Source: Methylacidimicrobium tartarophylax (GTDB lineage Bacteria > Verrucomicrobiota > Verrucomicrobiia > Methylacidiphilales > Methylacidiphilaceae). From it: a DNA stretch of 45,494 nucleotides. Positions within the stretch are counted from its first letter, which is position 1; each line of letters opens with the position of its first letter. The stretch is from contig NZ_CABFVA020000001.1 of the NCBI RefSeq assembly GCF_902143375.2, positions 1-45,494 on the forward strand. Reading direction: 5' to 3'. The translations under genes and the position numbers were made by a program. The notes beneath the pieces were generated by a model that was given only the letters and a program-made list of their open reading frames with translations, made no database searches and was not told the origin of the DNA. Of this stretch, positions 5,700 to 28,013 are shown in pieces.

Positions 5700-7046
5700 A
5701 TGCGTCTTGGCAGGAAACGGGCGAGAGCCTTGCTTGAAGGAATCGCCGGGCCTTTCGCGCTCGGCGTCCTTTTTCTTCTTACCTCGGCTTCCCGCTCCGA
5801 AGCGACATCGCCGCGGGAGGACGTCTTGCGCGCTCTGGTGGCCGAGGCTCGATCCGAGAATCCCGATTATCGGTCCTATGAAACGGCCATCCAGGCCGCG
5901 GAGGGGCAGTTCGTCCAGGTCACGATGCTTCCCAAGCCCCAGGTCGTTGCCTTCGTCGGGCCTTATCTGAGCGGCGGAGGAGCCGGCCAGACGGTCTTGG
6001 GATACCAGCAGGAGTTCGAGCTGCTCCAGCCCTTCTACTTTCCGGGAAAGGTCTCTTTGCGAAAAGCCGTCGCTCGCCGGGACGTCATCCTCGCACAGCT
6101 TCTCCTTCAGGAATTTGGCCTTTCGCTCGAGGTAGCAGTGAGATCCCTGGCCCAGCAGGTCGCCGTCACCGTCGCCGGCGCGGCGGCAGCGCGGGAGATC
6201 GAGGAGCGGACCTCTTCGGTGGTCGACTTCTTGGAGAAACGCCCCAAGGCAGGCATTCTCGGATACCTCGACGCACGAATCTTGGCGGGGAGCCTCATCG
6301 GACTGCAGCAGGAGCTCCGGTGGCTGGAGGAGAGCCGGTGGACGCTGATCGCGCAACTCAATGCCTACTTGGGGCGACCGTCGGACACCCCCGTGCCGGA
6401 GCAACTGCTTCCTTGGGAGTCCTTTCCTCCGGTCTCCCTGGATCGCCTCCTCGCGCAAGCGCAACGCCACAACATCCTCCTGCAAATCCATCGAGTCCTG
6501 ATCGATCGGGCTCGCCAACAGCGAAAGGCGACACAGATCGCCAACTACCCCGACCTTGCCCTGGGACCCTTCTGGATGGCCTACCAGGGAGTCAATTATG
6601 ACGCAGGCCCCGGTATCGAGATCTTGGTCGGCCTCCCGGTCGGAAAAGCAGAGGTCCCCGGAATCGAGGGAGTGGCCTGGGCCAACCAGCGCGGCAACCT
6701 AGCGACCGCCAAGGCCCAGGAAGAGCAGGCGATGGCTCTCTTCCCGGTCGTCCAGCGGAATGTGGAGAGCCTGATCTTCGCCCGCCTCTCCGCCTACGAA
6801 GCAACGAGGAATCAGCTGGCGCTTCAGCCACCGAGCCTGATCGCCTCCCTGAAAGAGGCCGCCGCGCTCGCCGAGCGGCAATACCGGATTGGTGCCATCG
6901 ACGTACACCGCTTCCTTGCGGCCCAGCAGCAATATCTTTCCGCCTTCCGCACCACGCTCGCCGCCCGGATGGACGCGGCGACCGCATGGCTCGACCTCTT
7001 CTTCTTGACGGGAGGAGAGTTCACGGCCAAGGGTTTCCCCGAATGA
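5700..7046 (+). CDS. TolC-family outer-membrane factor of metal efflux system (first copy)
   Basis: A 448-residue protein with an N-terminal signal sequence (basic start, hydrophobic [13 protein letters not shown]) followed by two OEP/TolC half-repeats of long amphipathic helices. The repeat phrases [16 protein letters not shown] and, later, [23 protein letters not shown] are typical of CzcC/CusC-like channels, which carry substrate across the outer membrane. It opens the efflux operon and overlaps the next gene by ATGA (7043-7046). It is divergent from gpmA with about 125 bases between starts. It and the second copy are clearly related over their whole length, by eye less than half identical. 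Confidence 0.85.
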
Positions 7047-8302
7047 AGGGAGTGCGATTTGTCCTTTCCTTTCTGCTCGTCGCCGCCGCGGGTGGATCCG
7101 CTCTTGCCGCCGATCCGCAGAGCGCTCTCGATGCACTCGTCGCCGAAGCCCTGGCGCGCAACCCGGAAATCGCCTATTACGAAGGAGCCATTGGTGCCGC
7201 CAAGGGGCAGGTGGTCCAAGCACGGATTCTTCCCTACCCGCAGATCGAAGGATTCGCCGGTCCCTGGTACAGCACGCCGACCCGGGGAGGAACGGCCCAC
7301 GGCTGGATGCAGGAATACGCGATCTACCAGCCGGTCTTCTTCCCCGGCAAGATGTCCCTGGCAAAGGCGATCGCGGAAAAGGACGTCCGCGTCGCCGAAC
7401 TCGGGCTCCAGCAGTTTCGATTGAGCTTGGCCATGCAGGTCCGGACGCTGGCTTACCGACTCGGCGTCGCCACCGCCAACGCGAGAATCGCCCACGAGAT
7501 CTCCGAGCGCGCAAACGGCTTGGTCGACCTCCTCCGCAGGCGCCCGACCGCCGGCGTCCAAGGCTATCTCGATTTACGGATCTTAGAAGGGAGCCTCGTC
7601 GATCTGCAGAGGCTGGCTCGGGAGCTCGAGCAGAATCGAACCGCGATCCAATCCCAGATCAACGCGCTGCGCTCCCGACCCTCTGCGACGCCCGTTCCCG
7701 ATACCATTTTCCCGCCGGCCGAAGCCCCCTCTCTCGCCCTGCCCGTGCTCCAGGAGCAAGCCAGAAGCCGGAACTACGCCCTTCTCATGCGCGAGACCGA
7801 GATCGACCGGGCCGCCAAATCGCTCGACGCAGCCAAGCTTGCTGCTCTTCCCGACTTTTCGGTCGGTCCCTTCTGGATCGGCGAGAGAGGAACCAACTTC
7901 GATCAGGGGCCCGGCATCGTCTTCACGAGCGGTCTCCCCTTCTGGAACGACAATCGAGGAAACATCCTGACCGCGGCCGCGCAACGCCGACAAGCAGAAG
8001 CGCTCCATGGCTCGGCCCTCTGGAGCGTCCAGAGCGCGGTCGCCGCCTCCTTCGCCACCTACCAGACGACGCGCAAGCAGCTCGCGGAGCAGTCGCACGA
8101 CGTCATTGCCCGGCTTCGACGCGCCGCCGAGCTCGCCGACCGCCAGTATCGGCTGGGTGCGATCCCGGTCCAGACCTTCCTCGAAATGCAGCGCCAATAC
8201 CTCTCCTCCGCCCAGGCCCTCTACACGGCGGCCCTGGACCTGCAAACGGCGCTCCTCAACCTAGAAAACCTGACGGCGGGAACGACCCTCGCCCCTCGTT
8301 AA
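7043..8302 (+). CDS. TolC-family outer-membrane factor of metal efflux system (second copy)
   Basis: A 419-residue paralog of the preceding gene. ATG 7043 overlaps the upstream TGA as ATGA, and [20 protein letters not shown] is a clean signal peptide ending at ALA/AD; the longer in-frame extension is antisense-like and rejected. The two OEP repeats share landmarks with the first copy: YYEGAIGAAKGQVVQA, QPVFFPGKMSL, QGYLDLRILEGSLVDLQ and ADRQYRLGAIPVQTFLEMQRQYL. Two channels in one operon suggest either channels specialised for the two pumps or a mixed trimer; neither can be decided from sequence. Confidence 0.85.
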   Translation: MKGVRFVLSFLLVAAAGGSALAADPQSALDALVAEALARNPEIAYYEGAIGAAKGQVVQARILPYPQIEGFAGPWYSTPTRGGTAHGWMQEYAIYQPVFFPGKMSLAKAIAEKDVRVAELGLQQFRLSLAMQVRTLAYRLGVATANARIAHEISERANGLVDLLRRRPTAGVQGYLDLRILEGSLVDLQRLARELEQNRTAIQSQINALRSRPSATPVPDTIFPPAEAPSLALPVLQEQARSRNYALLMRETEIDRAAKSLDAAKLAALPDFSVGPFWIGERGTNFDQGPGIVFTSGLPFWNDNRGNILTAAAQRRQAEALHGSALWSVQSAVAASFATYQTTRKQLAEQSHDVIARLRRAAELADRQYRLGAIPVQTFLEMQRQYLSSAQALYTAALDLQTALLNLENLTAGTTLAPR

Positions 8303-8315
8303 CCTGCCGGAGGTC

Positions 8316-9158
8316 ATGATGGACGCGCTCCTGACCCCCTCGCAACGGTTCGGCTGCGTGCTCTACATGCTGCTCGCCTTTTTGCCCACTCCAGGATGGG
8401 CGGCGGAACGGATGAACCGACCCGACCTTCCGGCTCCGCAAGAACCCACGGTCGCTTTGGAAGATTCCCGTTCGAAGAGGGAAGCCGAAGAGCCCCCGCA
8501 GCTCGTTCCGGACAAGGGGCTCCTTCTCGGGGAGATCACCCGCAAGGCCTTGCATCTCGAGACGACGCCGGTGATTGTCCACGATCTGGCTCCCCAACTC
8601 AGCGGAAGCGCGCAAGTCTACCGCGGAGCGTCCGAAAGAACGCAGTCGAGCGGCTCGATCCGCTCCGGCAATGCTTACGCCACCGTTTTCATCGATCCAC
8701 GAACGGCGGAAAAGCTCAAGGTCGGCAAACCCGTGCTCCTCCGTCACAAGGGCCAGGATGTAAACGGGCCGCCGGAAAAGGAAGGCAAGATCTTCCAAAT
8801 CGATCACGAGCTTGTTTCGGTGACCGGCCAAGCCGAGCTCCTGATCGAGTTCCCCGATCCCGCTAACGCCTTCCCCGTCGGCACATGGATCGAATTCTCG
8901 ACCCCGCTCGGAAGCGACACCTCCCGTCTCGCCGTCCCCCAGAGCGCTCTTCTGGCAAGCGCGGAAGGGAACTTCGTCTACGTTTGGGACGGCCGGTTCT
9001 ATCGGAGAACACCGATCGCGGTCTCTTTCTCGATTGATGGGCTCGTCGCTTTCGTGGGCAACCCGCCCGCAGGCACGCTCGTGGTCTCTCACGGGGCGGA
9101 AGATCTTTGGCTCCTGGAGCTCTCGCTCCGCCAGGGAGTCACCCGGAGTTCCGAATGA
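8316..9158 (+). CDS. Short periplasmic adaptor (membrane-fusion-protein-like) lacking hairpin and lipoyl domains
   Basis: A 280-residue protein with a signal peptide (hydrophobic core CVLYMLLAFLPTPGWA). The segment YATVFIDPRTAEKLKVGKPV followed by a beta-rich stretch resembles the beta-barrel domain of RND adaptors, and LAVPQSALLASAEGNFVYVWDG through GTLVVSHGAEDLW resembles the membrane-proximal domain. The lipoyl half-motifs and long coiled-coil hairpin found in 400-residue CzcB/CusB adaptors are not recognisable. Two ATGs overlap (8316 and 8319); GGAGG at 8309-8313 is better spaced for 8319. Its place between channels and pumps supports the adaptor role, but on sequence alone the family assignment is moderate. 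Confidence 0.68.
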   Translation: MMDALLTPSQRFGCVLYMLLAFLPTPGWAAERMNRPDLPAPQEPTVALEDSRSKREAEEPPQLVPDKGLLLGEITRKALHLETTPVIVHDLAPQLSGSAQVYRGASERTQSSGSIRSGNAYATVFIDPRTAEKLKVGKPVLLRHKGQDVNGPPEKEGKIFQIDHELVSVTGQAELLIEFPDPANAFPVGTWIEFSTPLGSDTSRLAVPQSALLASAEGNFVYVWDGRFYRRTPIAVSFSIDGLVAFVGNPPAGTLVVSHGAEDLWLLELSLRQGVTRSSE

Positions 9159-9204
9159 GAAGCAATTGCGCTAGGCTGAGTTTTCCGGATTGCAGGAGCA
9201 AGCG

Positions 9205-12200
9205 ATGATTCGCCGACTGTTGGCCTTTTCGCTGCATCGGCGGGAGCTGGTCCTCTTCGCCGCGATCGGGCTGCTCTGCGCAGGATTCTGGTCCGCTTTG
9301 CAGATCCCCATCGATGCGGTTCCGGACATCACCAGCCCCATGGTGCAAGTAAATACTCCGGTCCCGGCCCTGGCGCCCGAGGAAATCGAAAAGCTGGTGA
9401 CCTTTCCCCTGGAGATCGAGCTTTCGGGCATCCCAGGCATGGAGACGATGCGATCGCTCTCCAAGTTCGGACTTTCCCAAATAACGATGATCTTCCGGGA
9501 CGGCACCGACCTCTACCGAAGCCGTCAACTGGTCAGCGAGCGGCTCCTGGGTGCAGTGTCGAAGCTTCCCCGAGACTTGACCCCGACGCTCGCGCCGATC
9601 GCCACGGGAATGGGCGAAATCCTCTATTACACGCTCCACTACCGGCCGGATGCCAAGGAGAAGCCGCCAACCGAAATACTACAGCTCATGGAGTTGCGCC
9701 TTCTCCAGGAATATACGGTCAAACCCCTTCTCCGCATGGTGTCGGGAGTGGCCGATGTGAACACCAGCGGAGGCTATCAGAAGCTCATCTTGATCGAGCC
9801 GAACCCGGAAAGCCTCTTTCACGCCGGAATCACCGCTTCGGAGTTGGCCTCCGTGGTGGGAAAGAACGTGGAAAACGTGGGAGGTGCCGTCATCGACCAG
9901 GCCGGACAGCAGCTCTTCGTCCGCTCGCTTGGCCGGGTCGAGGATCTCCTGCAAATCGAGCGGCTGCCCGTCAAATATGGAGGCTCCTCCAAACCGATCC
10001 TCGTGAGCGACTTGGCCCGGGTGACCGTCGGACCGAACATTCGGACCGGCGCCGCGACCTGCAACGGTCAGGAAACCGTCCTGGGGACCGTCCTCATGCT
10101 GATTGGAGAAAACGCGCTGAGCGTCGCCGGGCGAGTCCGGGCAAAGATGGCGGAGATCCAGCAGCGGCTGCCGCCGGGAGTCGAGCTTCAAATCGTCTAC
10201 GATCAATCCGATCTCGTGAACCGTACGATCCACACCGTCATCCAGAACCTCTCGGAAGGAGCGCTACTGGTCATCGGCGTGCTCTTTTTCCTGGTTGCCA
10301 ATGTTCGCGCCAGCCTGCTCGTCGCCTCGGTCATTCCTCTCTCCTTTCTCTTCGCGATCTTCCTCATGCAGCCGCTCCATGTTTCGGCCAACCTGATGAG
10401 CCTGGGAGCCATCGACTTCGGATTGCTCGTCGATGGGGCGGTGGTGATCGTGGAAAATACCATCCGCGAGGTTGCCCGCCGTCAGGCGCAACTCGGCCGG
10501 CTGCTCACCCCCGCCGAACGCCAGTCGGCCATTCTCTCCGCCACCGAGCAGGTCGGACCCTCGGTCTTCTTTGGCGTGCTGGTCATCACCGTAGTCTATT
10601 TTCCCATTCTGGCGCTCGGGGGGATCGAAGGGAAAATGTTCCGGCCCATGGCTCTGACGGTCATCCTGGCCCTCTCCGGTTCTCTCTTGCTCGCTCTGAG
10701 CTATGTTCCTGCGGGAGCCTCGCTCTGGCTCGGCAAAAAGCTGCAGGATCGGGAAAGCCCGCTGATTCGCTGGGCGCGTGCCCTTTACACCCCGGCGCTG
10801 CGATGGACACTCGGCTGGGGAGGGCCCCTTGTCGTCTTCTCCTCCTTCGGACTCTTCGCTCTCTCTCTCTTTTTCTTGAGCCGGATGGGAGCAGTCTTCG
10901 TACCTCGGCTCAATGAAGGGTCTTTCACCGTGATGATGTACAAAACGTGGTCGATGGGGCTTCCCGCCTCGATGGCGCTTGAAAAGGAGACCGAGTCGAT
11001 GCTTCTCTCCCGGGTCCCGGAGATCTCCCTCATCTTTTCCCGGGCGGGCACCCCGGATATCGCCACCGATCCGATGCCTCAAAACGAAAACGACACCTAT
11101 ATGATCCTCCGCCCTCCGGAAGGGTGGCGCAAAGAGAAGGGAAAGCCGATCGACCGAGATCGCTTGATCGAGATCATTCAAGGCGAGATCGCGATGCGGG
11201 TTCCCGGACAAGGAATGCTCTTCGGCCAGCCGATCGAGATGCGCTTCAACGAGATGCTGGAAGGCGAAAAGGCCGACTTGGCGGCAAAGTGGTATGGGCC
11301 GGATTTCGACGTGCTCGAGCCCCTGGCGTCACAAACCATGGAGATTCTGCGCCAGATCCCTGGGGCCCTCGATGTCCAGATGCAGTCGGCGGGTCGGGCT
11401 CCTTCGCTCGAGTTCTCTCCCGACCGGTCCGCGATGGATCGGTACACGGTGGAAGCAGGGGAGATCAATGCCGCGGTAGCGACTTCCATGGCCGGACAGG
11501 TCGTGGGAACAATGATCGATGGGGAGCGGCGATACCCGGTTGTCATTCGCCTTCCGGAAGTCTTGCGTTCCGACCCTCAGGCGATCCTCCGGCTGCCTGT
11601 GCGAAGCGAATCGGGGGGGCTCTTGCCGCTCGGAGAGGTGGGAAAATGCAACGTGGAACAACGGGTGCGCATCATCCACCGCTCAGGAGGAATCCGCTAC
11701 CAGCCGGTACAAGTGACCCTGGGGAGCCGCGACGTGGCGGGATTCGTTCGCGAGGCGCAACGCCGCATTTCCCAGACGATCCAGACCCCTCGGGGCTATT
11801 TTTTGGAATTCGGCGGCCAATACCAGAATCTCCTTCGTGCCCAGGCCCGTCTGGCCGTGATCGTCCCCGCCGCGCTCCTCCTCATCTTCTTCCTGATCTT
11901 TACGGCCTTGGGAAACTTCCGGCAGACCGCCCTGGTGTTGATCAGCGTTCCGGTCGCAATCACCGGGGGGATTTTTGCCCTCCAATCCGCCGGACTTCCC
12001 TTCAGCCTGTCGGCGGCCGTCGGCTTCATTGCCCTCTCCGGCATCGCGGTCCTGGCAGCCCTCGTGCTGGTCTCTTTCTTTAATCAGTTGAGGGAGGAAG
12101 GACAGACGGTGGCCGAGGCGGTATGGGAAGGTTGCCAAATCCGCCTCCGGCCGATCCTGATGACGGCTACGGTCGCCAGCCTCGGTTTCCTTCCCATGGC

Positions 12201-12423
12201 GCTCGCACAGGGTGCCGGCGCGGAAGTGCAGCGGCCTCTGGCGGTCGTGGTGATCGGGGGAGTGCTCTCCTCGACGCTTCTCTCCCTCCTGCTCTTGCCG
12301 ACCCTCTATGCCTGGATGGAACGGTGGCGGGAAAGCGCACGCACAAGGAACGGCCGCCCACCGGCCGGCGGCGGGCCGCAACCGTTGGCCGGAGAAAAGA
12401 TCCGCCGCTTGCCCGAGGGATGA
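9205..12423 (+). CDS. CzcA-type heavy-metal RND efflux pump (first copy)
   Basis: A 1072-residue inner-membrane proton-driven transporter with the usual 12-helix RND layout and two large periplasmic loops. HME-RND hallmarks are IPIDAVPDITSPMVQVNT near the N-terminus, RSLSKFGLSQITMIFRDGTD, and at about residue 400 the helix-4 proton-relay sequence SLGAIDFGLLVDGAVVIVEN. The two acidic residues in DFGLLVD resemble CzcA (Zn/Co/Cd) rather than CusA (Cu/Ag), which lacks the first. ATG 9205 is chosen because AGGAG lies six bases before it; an in-frame TTG at 9190 is less likely. The exact metal is not shown by the sequence. Confidence 0.92.
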   Translation: MIRRLLAFSLHRRELVLFAAIGLLCAGFWSALQIPIDAVPDITSPMVQVNTPVPALAPEEIEKLVTFPLEIELSGIPGMETMRSLSKFGLSQITMIFRDGTDLYRSRQLVSERLLGAVSKLPRDLTPTLAPIATGMGEILYYTLHYRPDAKEKPPTEILQLMELRLLQEYTVKPLLRMVSGVADVNTSGGYQKLILIEPNPESLFHAGITASELASVVGKNVENVGGAVIDQAGQQLFVRSLGRVEDLLQIERLPVKYGGSSKPILVSDLARVTVGPNIRTGAATCNGQETVLGTVLMLIGENALSVAGRVRAKMAEIQQRLPPGVELQIVYDQSDLVNRTIHTVIQNLSEGALLVIGVLFFLVANVRASLLVASVIPLSFLFAIFLMQPLHVSANLMSLGAIDFGLLVDGAVVIVENTIREVARRQAQLGRLLTPAERQSAILSATEQVGPSVFFGVLVITVVYFPILALGGIEGKMFRPMALTVILALSGSLLLALSYVPAGASLWLGKKLQDRESPLIRWARALYTPALRWTLGWGGPLVVFSSFGLFALSLFFLSRMGAVFVPRLNEGSFTVMMYKTWSMGLPASMALEKETESMLLSRVPEISLIFSRAGTPDIATDPMPQNENDTYMILRPPEGWRKEKGKPIDRDRLIEIIQGEIAMRVPGQGMLFGQPIEMRFNEMLEGEKADLAAKWYGPDFDVLEPLASQTMEILRQIPGALDVQMQSAGRAPSLEFSPDRSAMDRYTVEAGEINAAVATSMAGQVVGTMIDGERRYPVVIRLPEVLRSDPQAILRLPVRSESGGLLPLGEVGKCNVEQRVRIIHRSGGIRYQPVQVTLGSRDVAGFVREAQRRISQTIQTPRGYFLEFGGQYQNLLRAQARLAVIVPAALLLIFFLIFTALGNFRQTALVLISVPVAITGGIFALQSAGLPFSLSAAVGFIALSGIAVLAALVLVSFFNQLREEGQTVAEAVWEGCQIRLRPILMTATVASLGFLPMALAQGAGAEVQRPLAVVVIGGVLSSTLLSLLLLPTLYAWMERWRESARTRNGRPPAGGGPQPLAGEKIRRLPEG

Positions 12424-12496
12424 AAGAACCCGGATCGTCTCCCGTTTCCGGAGCGTCCGGAAACAGCGACTCACCCGATCATGCAGGGAGATCGCC

Positions 12497-15400
12497 GTGA
12501 TTAACACCCTCCTTCGTTTCTCCGTTCGCCGGCGGGAGTTGATCTTTTTTGCCTCTGCGGCGCTCTTCGCTCTCGGGTTCTGGGCGGCTCTTCGGCTGCC
12601 GATCGATGCGGTTCCCGATATCACCAGCCCCATGGTGCAAGTCAACACCCCCGTGCCATCGCTCGCACCCGAAGAGATCGAAAAGCTCGTCACCTTTCCC
12701 ATCGAAGTCGAGCTCGCCGGCCTCCCGGGGCTCGACGTGATGCGCTCCCTCTCCAAGTTCGGCCTCTCCCAAGTCACCCTGATCTTTCGCGACGGCACCG
12801 ACATCTACCGAAGCCGGCAGCTCGTCAGCGAACGGCTGCTGGCTGCGCAAGCCAAAATCCCCCGCGACTTGAGCCCCTCGCTCGCCCCGATGGCGACCGG
12901 TCTGGGAGAGATCCTCTACTACTCCCTTGAATACCGCCCGGAATCCAAGGAGAAGCCTCCCACCGAAATGCTCCAGCTGATGGAGTTGCGCCTTCTCCAG
13001 GAATACACCGTCAAGCCGCTGCTCCGGAGAATTCCCGGGGTTGCCGATATCAACACCACGGGCGGCTATGAAAAACTGATTGTCGTCTCGCCTACCGCCG
13101 AAAGCCTCCTCCACGCCGGCTTGACCGTTTCCGATCTCGGCGCCCTGGTCGGCAAGAACGTGCAAAATGCGGGAGGCGCCGTCATCGACCAGATGGGCCA
13201 GCAGCTCTTCGTCCGCTCCCTTGGCCGAGTCGAGGATCTCGCGCAGATCGGGCGGCTGCCGATCAAGTATGCGGGCAGCACGCAGCCCGTGCTCGTCGGC
13301 GATCTGGCTCAAGTCGCCGTCGGGCCGAATATCCGAACGGGAGCGGCCACCGTGAACGGCAAGGAGGAGGTGGTCGGCACGGTCCTGATGCTGATCGGAG
13401 AGAACGCGCAGGCCGTCGCGAGCCGTGTAAAGGAAAAGATCGGAGAAATCCGAAAGCGGCTTCCGCCCTCCGTCGATATCCACATTCTTTACGATCAGTC
13501 GGAGCTGGTCGGCCGGACGATTCAGACCGTCGTCAAAAACCTCTCGGAAGGCGCCCTGCTCGTCGTTGGGGTCCTCTTTCTCCTGGTGGGCGAGGTGCGG
13601 GCAAGCCTCCTGGTCACCTCCGTGATTCCCCTCTCCTTTCTTTTCGCGCTCCTGGCCATGGGCCCGCTCCATGTCTCCGCCAACTTGATGAGCCTGGGCG
13701 CGATCGACTTCGGGCTCCTCGTCGACGGCGCGGTCGTTCTCGTCGACAACGCTCTGCGCGAACTGGCCCGGCGCAGGAGCGCCTCGGGACAACCTCTCAC
13801 CCCAAGCGAACGGCTCTCAACGGTCCTCTTGGCCGCCGAGCAGGTCGGCCCTTCCGTCTTCTTCGGCGTGCTGGTGATCACGGTCGTCTACGTCCCCATA
13901 CTCTCCCTCGGCGGCATCGAAGGGAAGATGTTTCGCCCCATGGCCTTCTCTGTGATCCTCGCGCTCTCGGGATCGCTGCTCCTCGCACTCACCTATGTAC
14001 CCGCGGCGGCCACGGTCTGGATCCGGGAAAACGCCTCCGGGCGGGAGACCTGGCTGATCCGGCTCGCCCGCAGAGCCTATCTCCCGATCCTTCGTTGGAC
14101 GCTCGGCCGGGGTGGGATTCTTGTGGTGGCAGGCTCCTTCGCGGCATTTGCCTTCGGTCTCTGGACGCTGAGCCATATGGGAGCCGTTTTCGTCCCACGC
14201 CTCGACGAGGGAGCCTTCACCATCGAGTTTTACAAGGCCCCCTCGGTCAGCCTGGAAGCGTCGGTGGCCCTTGAAAAGGAGACGGAGAAGATGCTGCTCT
14301 CCCGCATTCCGGAAGCCGAGCTCCTCTTCTCACGGACCGGCACCTCCGAGATTGCGACCGATCCCATGCCCCCGAATGAAAACGATCTCTACATGATGCT
14401 TCGGCCCCGCGCGCAGTGGCGCCAAGAGAATGGCCGCCCGATCGATCGGGAGAAGCTGATCGAGATCATCTCCCGGGAAGTCGAAACGCGGGTTCCCGGG
14501 CAGACCATGCTCTTCGTGCAGCCGATCGAGATGCGCTTCAACGACATGCTTGAAGGTCAGCGAGCCGAGCTCGCCGTGAAGTGGTTCGGACCGGATTACG
14601 ATGTCCTCGAGGGCTTGGCCTCGCGCACCCAGGAGATCCTTCGCACCATCCCGGGCGCCCTCGAGGTCGAGTTCCAGTCGGCCGGGCGCTCTCCCTCCTT
14701 GGAATTCCTGCCCGATCGCGGAGCCATGGAGCGATACATCGTCCAGTCGGCGGAAATCAACAGCGCCGTCGCCACCGGCGTGGGAGGGGAGAACGTCGGA
14801 ACGATGATCGACGGAGAGCGCCGCTACCCGATCGTGATCCGACTCCCCGAAGGGGAGAGAAGCGATCCCGAGAAAGTTCTCCGTCTTCCCGTCCGCAGCG
14901 AGAACGGAGGCCTGCTCCCCCTCGGGGAAGTCGCCGACTACACGATACGCGACCGGGTCCGGATGATCCACCGCGGCAACGGAATCCGCTACCAGGTCTT
15001 GGAAGTGACGCTCGGCAGCCGGGATCTCGAAGGCTTTGTCCGGGAAGCGCGCGCCCGGATTCTCCGGGCTCTCCATCCCCCGCCGGGATACTTCCTCGAG
15101 TTCGGCGGCCAATATCAGAACCTCGTTCATGCCCAAGCTCGGCTCGCCGTCATTGTGCCCACGGGTCTTCTGCTCATCTTCTTTCTGCTCTACACCGCGC
15201 TCGGCAGGCTCCGGCAGACGCTTCTGGTGCTTCTGAGCGTCCCCGTGGCGGCAACGGGGGGAATCTTTTCCCTAAGGCTGATGAACCTGCCCTTCAGTCT
15301 TTCCGCCGCCGTGGGCTTTATCGCCCTTTCGGGCATTGCCACCCTCGCGTCGCTCGTGCTCATCTCGTTTTTCAACCAGCTACGGAACGAAGGAAAGAGC

Positions 15401-15670
15401 GTGCGGGAGTCGGTCTGGGAAGGCTGCCAGATTCGGCTGCGGCCCGTGCTCATGACGGGCGCCGTAGCGAGCCTAGGCTTCCTCCCGATGGCTCTCGCGC
15501 AGGGCGCGGGTGCAGAGGTCCAACGACCGCTTGCGCTTGTCGTCATCGGAGGCATTCTCTCTTCTAGCCTCCTCTCGCTTCTCCTCTTGCCGACGCTCTA
15601 CACCTGGACCGAGCGGGACAGCGAAAAGCGGCACCCTTCGGGAAGCCCGACGGCGGGCGAGCGGTCATGA
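12497..15670 (+). CDS. CzcA-type heavy-metal RND efflux pump (second copy)
   Basis: A 1057-residue paralog of the preceding pump, highly similar throughout (long runs such as PIDAVPDITSPMVQVNTPVP and LMELRLLQEYTVKPLLR are identical). It keeps GAIDFGLLVDGAVVLVDN around residue 400. A GTG at 12497, six bases after GGGAG, is the likely start; it matches the N-terminus of copy one (INTLLRFSVRRREL against IRRLLAFSLHRREL). The in-frame extension to 12308 overlaps the first pump and is rejected. The gene ends in ATGA shared with the ATPase gene. Differences cluster in the periplasmic loop near 14,200-14,500, which could alter substrate choice or allow mixed trimers. Confidence 0.9.
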   Translation: MINTLLRFSVRRRELIFFASAALFALGFWAALRLPIDAVPDITSPMVQVNTPVPSLAPEEIEKLVTFPIEVELAGLPGLDVMRSLSKFGLSQVTLIFRDGTDIYRSRQLVSERLLAAQAKIPRDLSPSLAPMATGLGEILYYSLEYRPESKEKPPTEMLQLMELRLLQEYTVKPLLRRIPGVADINTTGGYEKLIVVSPTAESLLHAGLTVSDLGALVGKNVQNAGGAVIDQMGQQLFVRSLGRVEDLAQIGRLPIKYAGSTQPVLVGDLAQVAVGPNIRTGAATVNGKEEVVGTVLMLIGENAQAVASRVKEKIGEIRKRLPPSVDIHILYDQSELVGRTIQTVVKNLSEGALLVVGVLFLLVGEVRASLLVTSVIPLSFLFALLAMGPLHVSANLMSLGAIDFGLLVDGAVVLVDNALRELARRRSASGQPLTPSERLSTVLLAAEQVGPSVFFGVLVITVVYVPILSLGGIEGKMFRPMAFSVILALSGSLLLALTYVPAAATVWIRENASGRETWLIRLARRAYLPILRWTLGRGGILVVAGSFAAFAFGLWTLSHMGAVFVPRLDEGAFTIEFYKAPSVSLEASVALEKETEKMLLSRIPEAELLFSRTGTSEIATDPMPPNENDLYMMLRPRAQWRQENGRPIDREKLIEIISREVETRVPGQTMLFVQPIEMRFNDMLEGQRAELAVKWFGPDYDVLEGLASRTQEILRTIPGALEVEFQSAGRSPSLEFLPDRGAMERYIVQSAEINSAVATGVGGENVGTMIDGERRYPIVIRLPEGERSDPEKVLRLPVRSENGGLLPLGEVADYTIRDRVRMIHRGNGIRYQVLEVTLGSRDLEGFVREARARILRALHPPPGYFLEFGGQYQNLVHAQARLAVIVPTGLLLIFFLLYTALGRLRQTLLVLLSVPVAATGGIFSLRLMNLPFSLSAAVGFIALSGIATLASLVLISFFNQLRNEGKSVRESVWEGCQIRLRPVLMTGAVASLGFLPMALAQGAGAEVQRPLALVVIGGILSSSLLSLLLLPTLYTWTERDSEKRHPSGSPTAGERS

Positions 15671-17565
15671 AGCCTGGTCTTCCTTCTTCCGCGGAGAGAT
15701 CCGATGCACGCCGGCCCGCATTATGGCTGCTCCGCCACCGAAATGGATCGGTTGCGGCCTTGACCCTGATCGCCGTCGCTCTCCATCTGGCACTCCGCTT
15801 CGGGTTCCGATCGCAACCGCGCCTCTACGACGCACCGCTTCTGCTCGCGCTGGGAGCGGGAGGACTTCCCCTCATCGTTGAATTGGGGCGAAAAGCAATC
15901 CGCCGCGAGTTCGGATCGGATCTCCTCGCCGGCATCTCCATCCTTACCTCACTCTGTCTCGGGGAATATCTCGCCGGGTCGATCATCGTCCTCATGCTCT
16001 CCGGGGGAGAGTTCTTGGAGAGCTTCGCCATGGGGCAAGCGTCCTCGGTATTGCGCGCTCTGGCCAAGCGGATGCCTTCGAGCGTCCATCGGAAGGCGCC
16101 GTCCGGCCTCGAGGAGGTCTCCTTTTCGGCGGTTCGCATCGGCGATCAGGTCGTTGTTTTTCCCCATGAAACCTGCCCGGTGGACGGCGTCGTCGTCGAA
16201 GGCCACGGAGAGATGGACGAGGCCTACTTGACGGGCGAACCTTTTCGGATCCGGAAGACTGTGGGCACCTCGGTCCTCTCCGGCGCGATCAACGGGGAGT
16301 CGGCTCTGACCGTCCGCGCGACTCGCCTAGCCGAGGATTCCCGCTATGCGAAAATCATGGCCGTGATGGCTCGGGCCGAACAGGAGCGCCCGAGGCTTCG
16401 CCGTCTCGCGGACACCCTCGCCGTCTACTATACTCCCGCCGCGATCGCCCTCGCCGGGGCCACCTGGCTTTTCACCGGCCAACCGGTCCGCTTTCTGGCC
16501 GTGCTCGTGATCGCGACTCCCTGCCCGCTCATCCTCGCCATTCCCGTGGCCATCATCGGAGCGATCTCCCTCTGCGCTCGCCGGTCGATCATCGTCAGGA
16601 CGCCCGCGGCACTGGAACAGGTGAGCCAATGTCGAACCGCCTTTTTCGACAAGACCGGCACCCTCACCTATGGCAAGCCTCGACTGACCGAACTCTCCGT
16701 CGCAGAGGGCTTTTCCCGAAGGAAGGTGCTGAAGGTCGCCGCCGGACTCGAACACTATTCCAAGCATCCGCTCGCGCGCGCGATCCTCGCCGCCGCCCGA
16801 AAGGAGGGAATCGCCCCTCCCGAGGCTTCGGAGGTGAGAGAGCCGCCCGGGCAGGGACTCACCGGAGTGGTCGAAGGGCTCCAGGTGCGGATTACCGGCC
16901 GCTCGCAGCTCACCGGGGCCGAGATCGAGGAGGCCAAGCTCCCGCCTTCTTCCGGCGGCCTGGAATGCATTCTCTGGATCGGGGGACGCTATGCCGCCGC
17001 TTGCCGCTTCCGGGACGCGCCGCGCCGCGAGAGCCGTTCCTTCGTGGCCCATCTCGGGCCGAAGCACCAGTTCCACCGGACGATTCTGGTCTCCGGGGAC
17101 CGGGAATCCGAGGTCCGCTATCTCGCGGAGCAGGTGGGAATCCGGGAGATCCACGCCGGTCAGACGCCGGAGGAGAAGTTGACGCTCGTGCGGAAGGAAA
17201 CGGCACGAGTCAAGACGATCTATGTCGGCGACGGGATCAACGATGCCCCCGCCATGATGGCGGCCACGGTCGGCATGGCGATCGGGCAGAATGCGGATGT
17301 TACGGCGGAAGCCGCCGATGTGGTCTGCCTGGAAAACTCGCTTCGAAAGATCGACGAATTCCTCCACATCAGCCGGCGGATGCGGCGGATTGCGTTGCAG
17401 AGTGGGGTCGGAGGCATGCTGCTGAGTCTGTGCGGTATGCTGATCGCCGCCGGTGGGCGCTTGACTCCCGTGGAAGGAGCGATCGCCCAGGAGCTGATTG
17501 ACATCCTGGCGATCGGGAACGCGCTTCGAGCCGCCCTGCCTCCGCGAACTCTGCATGATGTGTGA
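15667..17565 (+). CDS. P1B-type heavy-metal-transporting ATPase with TPCP motif
   Basis: A 632-residue P-type ATPase. Actuator-domain TGEPFRI is near residue 188, the membrane metal-site motif IATPCPLILAIP near 283, the phosphorylated Asp in FDKTGTLTYGKP near 327, the nucleotide-domain HP motif (YSKHPLARA) near 365 and the hinge VGDGINDAPAM near 520. There is no N-terminal CxxC metal-binding domain. TPC instead of CPC argues against the usual Cu(I) or Zn/Cd/Pb types; TPC has been linked to the P1B-5 group (Ni/Fe), but that transfer is tentative. Its ATG overlaps the pump stop as ATGA, so it is part of the efflux operon, moving metal from cytoplasm to periplasm where the RND pumps could collect it. 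Confidence 0.9.
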   Translation: MKPGLPSSAERSDARRPALWLLRHRNGSVAALTLIAVALHLALRFGFRSQPRLYDAPLLLALGAGGLPLIVELGRKAIRREFGSDLLAGISILTSLCLGEYLAGSIIVLMLSGGEFLESFAMGQASSVLRALAKRMPSSVHRKAPSGLEEVSFSAVRIGDQVVVFPHETCPVDGVVVEGHGEMDEAYLTGEPFRIRKTVGTSVLSGAINGESALTVRATRLAEDSRYAKIMAVMARAEQERPRLRRLADTLAVYYTPAAIALAGATWLFTGQPVRFLAVLVIATPCPLILAIPVAIIGAISLCARRSIIVRTPAALEQVSQCRTAFFDKTGTLTYGKPRLTELSVAEGFSRRKVLKVAAGLEHYSKHPLARAILAAARKEGIAPPEASEVREPPGQGLTGVVEGLQVRITGRSQLTGAEIEEAKLPPSSGGLECILWIGGRYAAACRFRDAPRRESRSFVAHLGPKHQFHRTILVSGDRESEVRYLAEQVGIREIHAGQTPEEKLTLVRKETARVKTIYVGDGINDAPAMMAATVGMAIGQNADVTAEAADVVCLENSLRKIDEFLHISRRMRRIALQSGVGGMLLSLCGMLIAAGGRLTPVEGAIAQELIDILAIGNALRAALPPRTLHDV

Positions 17566-17737: not shown

Positions 17738-20700
17738 ATGGCTTTCTCAAAGAGAAGCGATTCCCTGCATTCCCTTGTGGCCAGTAGACTGGCGCTCCCC
17801 GCCACTCCCCGAAGACGCAAACGTCGTGGCATTTTGGCCGCACCCCTCGTCGAACCGCCACCCCACTGGTGGATGGATGCCGTCCTCTATGAAGTGCACG
17901 TCAAAGCCTTTGCCGACGGCAATGGAGACGGCATTGGCGACTTCGTGGGCCTCGTCGAGCGGCTCGATTACTTGAAGAAGCTCGGGATTACCGCGATCTG
18001 GCTCCTGCCGTTCTACCCCTCGCCGCTACGCGACGACGGCTACGACATCGCCGACTACTGCAGCGTCCATCCCAACTACGGAACCTTGAAGGAATTCGTC
18101 CGCTTTCTGGAAGAAGCCCATCGCCGGGAGATCCGGGTCATCACCGAGCTTGTCCTCAACCACACTTCCGACCAACACCCTTGGTTTCAACGGGCTCGCC
18201 GGTCTACCACCAAAAGCCGCTGGCGGAACTATTACGTCTGGAGCGATACCCCGAACCGCTACACGGAGGCCCGGATCATCTTCCAAGATTTCGAGAACTC
18301 GAACTGGACGTGGGACCCGATGGCCCGAGCCTACTTCTGGCACCGCTTCTACTCCCATCAGCCCGACTTGAACTACGACAATCCCGAGGTCCGAAAGGAA
18401 GTCTTGGCGGTCATCGATTTCTGGCTGGGCCTCGGCGTCGACGGTCTCCGCCTCGATGCCGTTCCCTACCTCTTCGAACGGGAAGGGACCAATTGCGAAA
18501 ACCTCCCGGAGAGCCACGCATTCCTCAAGGAGCTTCGCCGATACATCGACAGCCGTTACGCCAACCGGATGCTCCTGGCCGAGGCGAATCAGTGGCCGGA
18601 AGATGCAGCCGCCTACTTTGGCAACGGGGACGAGTGCCACATGGCTTTTCATTTCCCCGTCATGCCGCGTCTCTTCATGGCGATGCACATGGAGGAACGC
18701 TATCCCATCGTCGACATCCTGGAGCAGACGCCCCAAATTCCGGCGGGCTGCCGTTGGGCCACCTTTCTTCGAAACCATGACGAGCTCACGCTCGAGATGG
18801 TGACCGACGAGGAGCGGGACTATATGTTCCGGGTTTACGCCAAGGACCGGCGAGCGCGTTTGAACCTCGGCATCCGCCGGAGGCTGGCTCCCCTGTTGCA
18901 AAACAACCGGAGGAAGATCGAGCTCCTCACGATCCTCCTCTTCTCCCTGCCGGGGACGCCGATCCTCTATTACGGCGATGAGCTCGGCATGGGCGACAAT
19001 ATCTACCTCGGGGATCGCGACGGCGTGCGCACTCCGATGCAGTGGAGTGCGGACAAAAACGCCGGCTTTTCCCGCGCCAATCCCCAGAAGCTCTACCTTC
19101 CGGTGATCATCGACCCGGAATATCACTACGAGACGTTGAATGCCGAGCTCGAGGAGAACAACCCCTCCTCCCTCCTCTGGTGGACCCGGAGAGTCATCGC
19201 GATGAGACAACGCTTTTCCGCGTTTCGCCGGGGAGGCTTGCAGTTTGTCCACTCGCAAAACCCGAAGGTTCTCTCCTTCCTCCGCTCGGATGGGGAACAG
19301 AACATTCTGGTGGTCATCAACCTCTCCCGTTTCAGCCAGGTTGCGCAGGTTCCGCTTTCGAGCTTCCTGGGGGCGATTCCCGAAGAGGTCTTCGGGCGCA
19401 TGCGCTTTCCCGAGATCACCGACCGTCCTTACGCCTTCACCTTGGGTCCCTATGGACACTTTTGGCTCGAGCTCCACCCGCCCACCGCAACTCCCTCGAC
19501 TTCCCGAGAGAGGATCGCGATGTTGCCGGAGCCGCCGTCGCCCGAGTTTTGGCTCTCCGAGAGGGGACGAGCTTTCGCGGGAGATGCTCTCCCCGATTAC
19601 CTCTCCCATGAGGTTTGGTCGACCCGCTCCCTCCGGAAACTCACGCAGGCGGTCGCGGAGGACGCGCTCGAGGTCGAGACCCTCCGCTCCCTGGGGGAAC
19701 CCGTGCAAGCTGTCCTCTTTCGTCTCTCCTATTCCGAAGGCGAAGCCGGGACCGCCTTCTGCGGATGGCTTCCTGTCGAAGGCGAGGAGGCCGAACGTCT
19801 TCTCCAGAAGGAACCACAAAAGGTCTTCGCCCAGTATGCTCGGGAAGGAAAGACGGGCGTCTTGATCGACGCCTTCCTCGATCCGGCCTTCCGCGCATGG
19901 GTGCTCGACTGGTTGGCTTCGCGGAGGCGCGTCTCCTTGAAGACCGCCACCATCCAGGCGCGGCCGGCCGGCTACCTGGAAGATCTTCGTCGAAAGGGAG
20001 ATCTGCCTAGCGAATCCGAGATCCTTCCCGGTGCCAAGCAGAGTCGGACCGTGCTCTATGAGAAGCGGTTTGCCCTGAGATGCTATCTTAGGCTCGAAGA
20101 GGGTCCCAACCCCGAGGTCGAGATCGCCCGTTACTTGGGAGAACACCGCCTTCTGTCATTCGTCCCGCGGTATGCGGGCACAATCGATCTCCATCGGCAG
20201 CAGGGCGGGACCATTGTCCTTGCGCTGCTCCAAGAATTCCCTCCCATCGAAGCCGACGGCTGGTGTCTGGCCCTCGATGCCGCCAGCCGATTCCTGGAGA
20301 GAGCCTTAGGCCAGCGTTCCGCCTCGGCTGAATTTTCTCCTCTTCCGGCCGGCGATCCGCAAAGTTGGCCTCCGGAGCAGGTGCAGCTGATCGAAGGGGT
20401 CTTTTGCGAGCACCTTCGTCTCCTGGGAAAGCGAACGGCGGAACTGCATCGGGCGCTGGCGGCCGCTACAACCGATCCCGCATTCTCCCCGGAAGCGTTC
20501 ACCCCTTGGTCCCAGCGGTCCCTTTTCCAGGTTGCGATGGAGGCCCACCGGCGTGTCGGCCGGATGTTCGCCCTCCGGCAGCAAGATCCGGAGCATCAAG
20601 AATGGCAATCGCTGAGCGATCCATTGGAAAAAGCCCTGGCCTCCTTCCTTGGCCCCGTAATCCGAGCCGCAAAGATTCGAGTTCACGGAGATTATCATCT

Positions 20701-21139
20701 CGGGCGATTGCGCTTCACCGGCAAGGACTTCGTGCTTGCGGACTTCGAAGGCGAATTTTACCGGCCTCTCTCGGAGCGCAGGCTCAAACGGCCCGCCCAC
20801 CGGGATATAGCGAGCCTCATCTCCTCCCTCTATGCGGCTGCGCTCTCCGCGCTCGCTCGAAATGGAGGCCTGCCGCAAACCGATCTTCCCTGGATGCAAG
20901 CGGCGGCGGAGAGCTGGTGGTTCTATGCAAGCCATGTCTTCTGGCGCGCCTATCGCGAAGCCATGGCTCATGCCCCCTGCTGCCCGGCTTCCAAGGAAGA
21001 AGAGGCTCGCCTTCTCAAGTTTTGCCTTGTGGAGCGCGGTCTTTCGGAACTCGATTTCGTGCTGCGTTGGGAGCCCCCGTCCACGACGATCCGGCTCCGC
21101 TTCCTCAAAACCATCCTGGAACACCCCCTCTATGTTTGA
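17738..21139 (+). CDS. treS: Trehalose synthase fused to maltokinase (TreS-Mak)
   Basis: A 1133-residue fusion. Residues about 45-590 are a GH13 trehalose synthase (maltose/trehalose interconversion): DGYDIADYCSVHPNYG, nucleophile Asp240 in GVDGLRLDAVP, acid Glu282 in LLAEANQWPED and Asp348 in FLRNHDEL. The C-terminal part is a maltokinase-like aminoglycoside-phosphotransferase fold with HGDYHLGRL near residue 984 and VLADFEGEFYRPLSERR (metal-binding Asp). The fused enzyme would turn trehalose through maltose into maltose 1-phosphate. ATG 17738 has GAGGA nine bases upstream; the first 40 residues are an arginine-rich extension without clear homology. The last eight bases overlap glgX, indicating an operon. 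GlgE, the consumer of maltose 1-phosphate, is not in the window. Confidence 0.93.
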   Translation: MAFSKRSDSLHSLVASRLALPATPRRRKRRGILAAPLVEPPPHWWMDAVLYEVHVKAFADGNGDGIGDFVGLVERLDYLKKLGITAIWLLPFYPSPLRDDGYDIADYCSVHPNYGTLKEFVRFLEEAHRREIRVITELVLNHTSDQHPWFQRARRSTTKSRWRNYYVWSDTPNRYTEARIIFQDFENSNWTWDPMARAYFWHRFYSHQPDLNYDNPEVRKEVLAVIDFWLGLGVDGLRLDAVPYLFEREGTNCENLPESHAFLKELRRYIDSRYANRMLLAEANQWPEDAAAYFGNGDECHMAFHFPVMPRLFMAMHMEERYPIVDILEQTPQIPAGCRWATFLRNHDELTLEMVTDEERDYMFRVYAKDRRARLNLGIRRRLAPLLQNNRRKIELLTILLFSLPGTPILYYGDELGMGDNIYLGDRDGVRTPMQWSADKNAGFSRANPQKLYLPVIIDPEYHYETLNAELEENNPSSLLWWTRRVIAMRQRFSAFRRGGLQFVHSQNPKVLSFLRSDGEQNILVVINLSRFSQVAQVPLSSFLGAIPEEVFGRMRFPEITDRPYAFTLGPYGHFWLELHPPTATPSTSRERIAMLPEPPSPEFWLSERGRAFAGDALPDYLSHEVWSTRSLRKLTQAVAEDALEVETLRSLGEPVQAVLFRLSYSEGEAGTAFCGWLPVEGEEAERLLQKEPQKVFAQYAREGKTGVLIDAFLDPAFRAWVLDWLASRRRVSLKTATIQARPAGYLEDLRRKGDLPSESEILPGAKQSRTVLYEKRFALRCYLRLEEGPNPEVEIARYLGEHRLLSFVPRYAGTIDLHRQQGGTIVLALLQEFPPIEADGWCLALDAASRFLERALGQRSASAEFSPLPAGDPQSWPPEQVQLIEGVFCEHLRLLGKRTAELHRALAAATTDPAFSPEAFTPWSQRSLFQVAMEAHRRVGRMFALRQQDPEHQEWQSLSDPLEKALASFLGPVIRAAKIRVHGDYHLGRLRFTGKDFVLADFEGEFYRPLSERRLKRPAHRDIASLISSLYAAALSALARNGGLPQTDLPWMQAAAESWWFYASHVFWRAYREAMAHAPCCPASKEEEARLLKFCLVERGLSELDFVLRWEPPSTTIRLRFLKTILEHPLYV

Positions 21140-23303
21140 ACGATTTCTGCCGGGAAATCCCTTCCCCTTGGGCGCTTACTGGGATGGCCGAGGGGTGAAC
21201 TTCGCCCTCTTTTCCGCGAGTGCGGAGAAGGTCGAGCTCTGCCTCTTTTCCGAAGATCGTCGCGAGCTCCAGCGAATTCCCGTGTCCGAGTCGGACGGAG
21301 AGGTCTGGCATACCTACGTTCCAGGGATGCTGCCGGGACAGCAGTATGGCTATCGGATCCATGGACCCTACGAGCCCTCACGCGGCCTACGGTTCAATCC
21401 GAGCAAGGTGCTCCTCGACCCCTATGCCCGGGAAATCGGCGCCCACCTCAAGTGGGACGACGCGGTTTTCGGCTACACGGTCGGCGATCCCGACCAGGAT
21501 CTCAGCCTCGATTCCCGGGACGACGCCTCCTTCGTTCCGTTGGCCCGCGTCGCCCACACCATGTTTCCCTGGACCGACGATCGTGCTCCGGCAGTTCCTT
21601 GGCATAAGACCGTGATTTACGAGACGCACGTCAAGGGGCTCACCAAGCTTCATCCCAAAATCCCGCCGGAACTCCGGGGCACCTACCTCGGCCTGGCCCA
21701 CGATGAGATGATCCGCTACTTCCTGGAGCTCGGTGTTACCGCGATCGAGCTCCTTCCCGTACATCACCATATCGATGAGCGAGTCCTGATCGAAAAAAAG
21801 CTCTCCAACTACTGGGGATACAACACACTCGGTTTTTTTGCGCCGGATTTCCGCTACGCCGTTGCGAATTGCGGCCTCACCTGCGCGGAGCAGTTTCAGT
21901 CGATGGTCCGCTCTCTCCATCTCCACGGGATCGAGGTGATCCTCGATGTGGTTTACAACCATACGGCGGAAGGCAATCAGCTAGGACCCACTCTCTCCTT
22001 CCGAGGCATCGACAACCTCTCCTACTACCGGCTTTCTTCGGAAGATCCCCGCTACTACGTCGACTTCACCGGCACCGGCAATACCTTCAACATGCGCCAT
22101 CCCCGGGTGCTCCAGCTGATCATGGACAGCCTCCGATACTGGGTCACCGAAATGCACGTCGACGGGTTCCGCTTCGATCTGGCCAGCAGCTTGGCCCGCG
22201 AGTTTTTCGAGGTCGACCGGCTTTCGGCCTTCTTTGATCTCATTCATCAGGACCCCGTTCTTTGCCGCGTGAAATTAATTGCAGAGCCTTGGGATCTCGG
22301 TCCCGGAGGTTACCAGGTCGGGAATTTTCCCGTCGGTTGGGCCGAGTGGAATGGCAAGTACCGAGACTGCGTCCGTCGCTTCTGGAAGGGAGAAGGAGGC
22401 ATGGTCTCGGAACTGGCCACCCGCCTCGCGGGATCGAGCGATCTCTACGAAGCAAGCGGAAAGCTGCCCCACGCCAGCATCAACTTCATTACCTGTCACG
22501 ACGGCTTTACCCTTCTGGACCTGGTCTCCTACGAGCAGAAGCACAATGAAGCCAACGGGGAGGAGAACCGGGACGGCACCGATGCCAACTGGAGCATGAA
22601 CTGCGGCGTCGAAGGGCCGACGGAGGATCCTGCGATCCTGGCGCTTCGAACCAAGCAGAAACTCAACTTCTGGCTCACGCTGCTCACCTCGCAAGGAGTG
22701 CCCATGGTCCAGGCGGGCGATGAGTTCTGCCATACCCAGTCGGGCAACAACAATGCCTATTGCCAGGACAACGAGATCTCTTGGCTCAACTGGGAGCCGA
22801 CGGCAGAAAAGCTCTTTTTCACCCAACTGGTGCAACAACTCATCTGGATGCGGCGGAAGGAGCCGGTCTTCCAGCGTCGTCATTTCTTCCAAGGGAGGGA
22901 AATCCGCGGCTCCGACATTCGCGACGTGGTCTGGATCGGCCCGTCCGGAAAGCCGATGGACGAATCGGAGTGGACCTCCCCTGCGGTCCAGTGCCTGGGA
23001 GTACGCCTCTCCGGCGACATGACGGGCGTCGTCGATGAGTTCGGCAACCCGGTTGAGGGGAGCTCGATGCTCCTTCTTTTTAACGCTTCGGAGCAGCCGA
23101 TCCCCTTCGTGCTTCCCAAGCGGCGAGGAAGCCTTCGTTGGGAGCGGATCCTCGACACCGATCAACCCAGGCTGGCTCCCGAGCGGTTGGCCGCCGGAGA
23201 AACCTACACGCTGATGGGACATACCAGTGTCCTGTTCCGCGGGGAGCGCCCCACAGAGCCTCTGCCTCCCGGGGAATTCCTGGAACCGATCCTCAGCGAG
23301 TAG
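21132..23303 (+). CDS. glgX: Glycogen debranching enzyme GlgX/TreX (isoamylase type)
   Basis: A 723-residue GH13 debranching enzyme that hydrolyses alpha-1,6 branches of glycogen. An N-terminal CBM48-like domain (PFPLGAYWDGRGVNFALFS) is followed by the catalytic barrel with ILDVVYNHTAEGN, nucleophile in VDGFRFDLAS (about residue 347), acid in LIAEPWDLGPGGYQVG (about 383) and the third acid in CHDGFTLLDLVSY (about 455). ATG 21132 lies inside the end of treS (overlap 21132-21139) and its product begins exactly as the family does; the in-frame extension into treS is rejected. It would release linear maltooligosaccharides, the substrate of TreY. Confidence 0.94.
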   Translation: MFERFLPGNPFPLGAYWDGRGVNFALFSASAEKVELCLFSEDRRELQRIPVSESDGEVWHTYVPGMLPGQQYGYRIHGPYEPSRGLRFNPSKVLLDPYAREIGAHLKWDDAVFGYTVGDPDQDLSLDSRDDASFVPLARVAHTMFPWTDDRAPAVPWHKTVIYETHVKGLTKLHPKIPPELRGTYLGLAHDEMIRYFLELGVTAIELLPVHHHIDERVLIEKKLSNYWGYNTLGFFAPDFRYAVANCGLTCAEQFQSMVRSLHLHGIEVILDVVYNHTAEGNQLGPTLSFRGIDNLSYYRLSSEDPRYYVDFTGTGNTFNMRHPRVLQLIMDSLRYWVTEMHVDGFRFDLASSLAREFFEVDRLSAFFDLIHQDPVLCRVKLIAEPWDLGPGGYQVGNFPVGWAEWNGKYRDCVRRFWKGEGGMVSELATRLAGSSDLYEASGKLPHASINFITCHDGFTLLDLVSYEQKHNEANGEENRDGTDANWSMNCGVEGPTEDPAILALRTKQKLNFWLTLLTSQGVPMVQAGDEFCHTQSGNNNAYCQDNEISWLNWEPTAEKLFFTQLVQQLIWMRRKEPVFQRRHFFQGREIRGSDIRDVVWIGPSGKPMDESEWTSPAVQCLGVRLSGDMTGVVDEFGNPVEGSSMLLLFNASEQPIPFVLPKRRGSLRWERILDTDQPRLAPERLAAGETYTLMGHTSVLFRGERPTEPLPPGEFLEPILSE

Positions 23304-23363
23304 CGCTCGAAAGCAACGCTTGTCCGGAAAATCGATTTCCAACCATTCGAAAAGACAGTCCTC

Positions 23364-28007: not shown

Positions 28008-28013
28008 AGCCAC

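Follow-up and report, generated by a model that had tools for sequence, protein, structure and literature searches.

A periplasmic adaptor with neither lipoyl domain nor alpha-hairpin in a Verrucomicrobiota heavy-metal RND operon, and its relatives in one RND clade

The operon and its heavy-metal pumps

The window, the whole 45,494-nucleotide stretch of Methylacidimicrobium tartarophylax DNA analysed here, carries on its forward strand an operon in the order two outer-membrane channel genes, a short adaptor gene, two heavy-metal RND genes and a P-type metal ATPase gene. Both channel genes belong to the OEP family. The first lies at 5700 to 7046 (PF02321, 4.1e-17) and the second at 6986 to 8302 (PF02321, 1.1e-32), with its true start probably near 7043. 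The structural model of the second channel has ordinary TolC/CusC length and fold, matching TolC with a Z score of 28 and CusC (3pik) with 25.5. The adaptor gene, called the mini adaptor here, starts with ATG, occupies 8316 to 9158 and encodes 280 residues. Its reading frame, confirmed as real, begins 13 bp past the stop of the second channel gene, and 31 bp separate its end from the first RND frame. Flanks this tight leave no room for hidden lipoyl or hairpin sequence alongside the gene.

The two RND permeases, at 9190 to 12423 (possibly starting at ATG 9205) and 12308 to 15670, are of the CzcA-like heavy-metal type, scoring 1105.5 and 1117 bits against TIGR00914 (cut-off 701.45). The second frame overlaps the first RND gene at its start and probably begins later. 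The P-type metal ATPase gene (15667 to 17565) overlaps the end of the second RND gene by 4 bp and scores above cut-off for both TIGR01512 (450.2 bits) and TIGR01525 (500.1 bits). Beside the metal operon, at 17738 to 28013, lies a cluster which by eye resembles trehalose/glycogen metabolism and includes alpha-amylase-family genes.

We take M573, M623 and M672 (CusA numbering) to be the Cu/Ag methionine triad of CusA. The triad is not kept in either permease, reading M/E/E in the first and E/E/D in the second, and its loss makes divalent metals the more likely substrates over Cu(I)/Ag(I), as judged from sequence. A sequence-only reading of this locus had set the pumps against a CusA-type model. 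Both the triad and the RND tree described below place the RND partners as CzcA-like rather than CusA-like.

Domain content and conservation of the mini adaptor

The AlphaFold2 model of the mini adaptor (mean pLDDT 83 from a 23-row alignment; 10-residue means of 79-97 over residues 61-270) is built of strands throughout, except for short helices and a predicted N-terminal helix at residues 8-21 (8337 to 8378), likely a Sec signal. Model and alignments assign residues 62-103 (8499 to 8624) to the N-terminal strands of a membrane-proximal (MP) domain, with conserved KG and AQ(V/I)YR motifs. The beta-barrel domain (residues 119-197; 8670 to 8906) and the C-terminal part of the MP domain (residues 202-272; 8919 to 9131) are placed by the TIGR01730 match, by the comparison of profiles with solved adaptors and by the model. 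Between them and the N-terminal strands lies a linker at residues 104-118 (8625 to 8669), standing, in the model and a joint alignment, where CzcB and CusB have lipoyl half 1, hairpin and lipoyl half 2. The model runs directly from MP strand 94-103 through this loop into barrel strand 119-126. When 16 lipoyl-containing adaptors, CusB and CzcB among them, were aligned jointly with 23 minis, the gap corresponded to the same three elements, which are replaced in the mini adaptor by about 15 residues.

Profile searches gave the same picture. TIGR01730 (RND_mfp) matches the mini adaptor at profile positions 170-311 of 322 only, scoring 37.8 bits where the cut-off is 94.9, and a Pfam search returned no match at E<=1. 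A lipoyl profile found no match among the mini relatives. The mini-family profile aligns to solved adaptors at positions 112-249 (CusB 245-381) and 111-248 (ZneB 208-343), regions which, by the domain borders we assume, lie behind the lipoyl domain of each protein. The best structural matches of the model are CusB in CusBA (3ne5_C; Z 14.4, rmsd 4.7, 200 aligned), ZneB (3lnn; Z 14.2, rmsd 6.1, 194 aligned) and BesA (4kks; Z 13.5, rmsd 5.5, 180 aligned); structural neighbours were also sought with Foldseek. All three are adaptors, and homology to a non-adaptor family was not seen. The mini adaptor thus has the beta-barrel and MP domain of the adaptor class, lacks its lipoyl halves and alpha-hairpin and does not reach the TIGR01730 cut-off. 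It is encoded alongside an RND and an outer-membrane channel, as RND periplasmic adaptors are. The sequence-only reading had described this gene as the only adaptor-like gene in the operon, with barrel and MP features alone, and alignment and structure prediction both bear this out, the model of the single protein containing neither lipoyl halves nor hairpin. On alignment and model, the 280-residue protein is confirmed as a real adaptor with predicted MP and beta-barrel domains only.

The gene is also well conserved. Matches are present in 28 of 60 relatives, mostly in open frames of similar length, and six orthologues within the genus are 68-91% identical to it. Across all 21 pairs of the seven genus members dN/dS lies at 0.12-0.23; purifying selection acts on the mini adaptor gene. 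The order channel, short adaptor, RND recurs in 30 neighbourhoods (L045-L074) save where a contig end cuts it, and a weak-match locus, L075, deviates in having one 498-residue frame. The mini adaptor was matched in 23/23 named loci, titled as Verrucomicrobiota groups, Lentisphaerae or Kiritimatiellia, with identical gene order where uncut. The comparison with relatives that the sequence-only reading had suggested thus shows a kept channel-mini-RND order, with genes of similar length between TolC-type channel and CzcA-type RND genes across Verrucomicrobiota. In most members outside the family of the window the lipobox cysteine is present and the C-terminus carries a GGGH(S/C)H tail; the window protein has neither. 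A plasmid search with the mini query gave partial matches only (93 records, none covering 80%), and no plasmid minis were found at that sensitivity.

Adaptor reduction across one RND clade

To place the pump among its relatives, a 383-genome draw of the phylum was searched with one RND of the window type and two candidates per genome were scored. The 60 survey loci comprise the 58 not yet classified among the listed matches down to 811.7 bits, plus two lower ones. Neighbouring genes were classed by profiles as mini adaptor, lipoyl segment, full adaptor, channel or RND, a "full" adaptor being one with a lipoyl-profile match, which is not a row-by-row statement on the hairpin. There were 18 loci with a mini adaptor, 4 with a still shorter "micro-adaptor", 5 with channel and RND but no adaptor, 2 with a lone RND, 1 truncated and 30 with a lipoyl-containing adaptor. 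One locus (L215) was counted as mini with its adaptor 745 bp from the RND, beyond the 700-bp neighbour limit. In the truncated locus (L224; G360:C85), the RND reads only from query position 376, in a frame of 654 residues; it appears truncated and was set aside.

The micro-adaptors, of 137, 138, 144 and 150 residues, consist of signal peptide and MP domain only, the barrel being gone too. In four sphingomonad plasmid records the channel gene overlaps the RND start, and an adaptor lies neither between nor beside them. A sensitive six-frame scan of 17 adaptor-free, lone-RND or truncated loci found no adaptor of the system, with controls detected in 5/5 cases; absence was judged at the RND locus together with family searches, so an unlinked gene elsewhere in the genome is possible. 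One of these loci, L226, has a full-length adaptor further downstream, beside another channel gene.

A tree of 115 RND rows was then built, leaving out the truncated L224, L072_1903 with its very long branch and five identical duplicates. It contains one 68-row clade (SH-aLRT 100) of 49 mini, 9 adaptor-free, 6 lone-RND and 4 micro systems, and no lipoyl-containing adaptor system falls within it. All 47 rows outside have a lipoyl domain: 44 are full and 3 are hairpin-less but lipoyl-retaining. A mixture-model tree of 62 rows reproduced the split (42 rows, support 100). Inside the clade the adaptor-free rows cluster (98), and the micro-adaptors require two changes. CzcA (L166) falls in the sister group, in line with the window RNDs scoring above the TIGR00914 cut-off, but the window clade stands apart from it and has either reduced adaptors or none. 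More distant are E. coli CusA and the family's CusA-type pumps, which have full-length CusB. The simplest reading of the tree is one loss of the lipoyl and hairpin module followed by further reductions, with the root, and hence the direction, as we infer them.

The own genome holds further RND genes. One, a lone RND from the reduced-adaptor clade (L140; C83:5009-8281), lies beside genes which by eye resemble an NRAMP-type Mn/Fe transporter and a DtxR/MntR regulator, and the lone RND of this subclade recurs in G007, G010, G011 and G012, also in G008 and G009. On another contig (L139; C9:1067-7488), a tandem pair of RND genes of non-metal type is found near two channel genes (8732-12052), and a sigma-factor-like gene (8061-8693) lies in between. 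Neither the mini profile nor the general adaptor family found an adaptor on that contig.

Channel gate, alternative explanations and a proposed mechanism

We also compared the channels. In the literature excerpts drawn on, the secondary gate of TolC is D371/D374. The D371 column is acidic in 0/57 channels of reduced systems (Thr in the product of the second channel gene of the window) versus 28/32 in lipoyl-containing systems, and the D374 column in 54/57 versus 27/32. The link of this gate change to adaptor reduction is suggestive, the change probably being one event in non-independent rows. The excerpts describe an altered ring (D363/K366) in BesC, the channel of the hairpin-less BesA, as well, and a single aspartate ring in OprM although it is partnered by a full adaptor. 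Loss of the TolC-D371 acid was rejected as proof of hairpin-less docking, since OprM also has one ring. A longer channel as compensation was likewise rejected, with lengths of 440±17 residues (n=55) in reduced versus 446±28 (n=32) in lipoyl-containing systems and a TolC-like model of the second channel. So was a longer RND docking domain, where there are short indels only, of about 7 residues near CusA 151-160 and of 1-3 residues elsewhere. No helper supplying a hairpin was found among the recurring neighbour clusters inspected (clusters 0, 1, 3 and 4).

The sequence-only reading had offered three explanations: that the pump docks channels directly, that another protein completes the adaptor or that the complex differs from the CusBA-C model. 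The comparative data favour direct docking and a departure from CusBA-C, because the same RND clade holds MP-only and adaptor-free systems. Completion by another protein survives as the lesser reading, full-length adaptors being present in all genomes tested. In its main form, the mini adaptor would assemble into a mixed ring together with a full-length adaptor from elsewhere in the genome, which would supply lipoyl domain and hairpin. Two adaptors, TriA and TriB, are believed to act in TriABC, and 6vej is among the matches of the mini-family profile to solved structures. Full-length RND adaptors occur in the own genome and in 8/8 and 17/17 genomes tested, and the search for a genome without them, which could have disproved such borrowing, found none, as all tested genomes have some. 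A CusB-type adaptor with a CusA-type RND was found in 8/8 relatives fetched as loci, the copy of G006 being split over two frames. These full-length heavy-metal adaptors adjoin their own CusA-type RND, however, and in every row sampled the loss follows one RND clade, on to MP-only and to no adaptor at all, a pattern that borrowing neither requires nor forbids. We consider such a mixed ring unlikely. In the own genome, parts of a full-length CusB-type adaptor lie at two contig ends (C125:15-416 and C17:15-146) by a CusA-type RND (C17:284), and look like a gene split by the assembly.

It is also improbable, in our judgement, that the pump does not span the envelope, its RND moving metal into the periplasm or working on periplasmic metal in loose coupling with the channel, and the mini adaptor sensing metal or acting as an activator. 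The clade does include lone RNDs with no channel or adaptor gene nearby (C83 of the own genome, that is L140, with L152, L153, L155, L230 and L231 in the tree, and L154 outside it), and some clade members may accordingly not be trans-envelope pumps. In mini, micro and adaptor-free loci, by contrast, a channel gene lies directly upstream unless a contig end cuts the locus, and in some adaptor-free loci it overlaps the RND start.

Could another small protein stand in for the missing module? The foremost candidate is a small, secreted, conserved Cys-rich protein with a C-terminal C..C...EYACTC motif, whose gene closely follows that of the RND (L201-L221, L115-L137). It occurs in 29/61 reduced-adaptor loci and 4/4 micro loci, and when 16 sequences were searched it showed weak similarity to the CzcB N-terminal domain (E 1.3e-05). 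But it is about 145-175 residues long, resembles that N-domain and not a lipoyl domain or hairpin, and is absent from the window, from 10 scanned loci of the window's family (L045, L048-L056) and from 9/9 adaptor-free loci. Replacement by such a protein is thus very unlikely, and the Cys-rich protein may be an accessory. Finally, that the mini adaptor is a frameshift, an assembly error or a decaying gene has nothing but its short length in its favour and can be dismissed given the abutting flanks, the matches in relatives and named loci and the dN/dS values above.

The reading we favour, with somewhat better than even confidence, is that the mini adaptor works in the periplasm as a genuine adaptor for a divalent-metal RND pump of CzcA type, in a non-bridging role and with direct docking of the channel. 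One RND clade would have shed its outer-membrane-facing module of lipoyl domain and alpha-hairpin in a single event at its base. Later losses within the clade would have removed the barrel, giving MP-only micro-adaptors, and the whole adaptor, giving channel-RND operons and the lone RND. The remaining MP and barrel piece would sit against the periplasmic part of the RND near the inner membrane, as the same domains do in CusB and AcrA, and may serve pump activation or metal loading and not the bridging of the periplasm. With adaptor bridging lost, the outer-membrane channel would have to make direct or transient contact with the RND docking domain. We are evenly divided on the broader proposal that the whole metal RND clade gave up adaptor bridging, its adaptor being peeled away from the outer-membrane end (hairpin and lipoyl domain, then barrel, then all) with the MP domain the last part to stay functional, and its channel docking directly with an altered gate.

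The mini adaptor shares the MP and barrel order, the fold and the operon logic of CzcB, ZneB and CusB, but lacks the lipoyl halves and hairpin that CzcB and CusB have. A close parallel is BesA of Borrelia burgdorferi (4KKS-4KKU), which in excerpts of its description (PMC3807786) also lacks the alpha-hairpin and has RND and TolC-type channel genes alongside its own. BesA retains its lipoyl domain, to which its authors there assign channel contact, whereas the mini adaptor has lost that too and serves a CzcA-type pump. Plasmid adaptors of Xanthomonas (L163), Asticcacaulis (L168) and Legionella (L167) likewise stand in CzcA-type operons and have no hairpin, but keep lipoyl halves, as BesA does, and their RNDs are not part of the reduced clade. 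Direct docking of a hairpin-less pump has already been proposed for BesABC, according to excerpts of PMC3807786 and PMC4446572, and the latter, a 2015 review, names BesA as an example of efflux assemblies with no hairpin at all and regards these as perhaps the most serious challenge to the tip-to-tip model. Further literature drawn on in excerpt comprises PMC8277102, PMC13328181, PMC8779874 and PMC2279261. In the open-access literature searched we found no lipoyl-less or adaptor-free RND systems. A hairpin-less adaptor is thus already known; not seen before in that literature are an adaptor family without lipoyl domain and hairpin, its MP-only relatives and adaptor-free members, all within one RND clade.

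In current tip-to-tip models the hairpin must touch and open the channel. The sequence-only reading had held that known tripartite metal pumps need such a hairpin. The claim was too strong, as the hairpin-less, lipoyl-keeping BesA was known. The clade described here challenges the tip-to-tip picture further, with hairpin and lipoyl domain, then barrel, then the whole adaptor missing. Its members offer natural controls for the role of each adaptor domain, the MP domain being the part kept longest, and direct contact between RND and channel becomes testable in small two- or three-gene systems.
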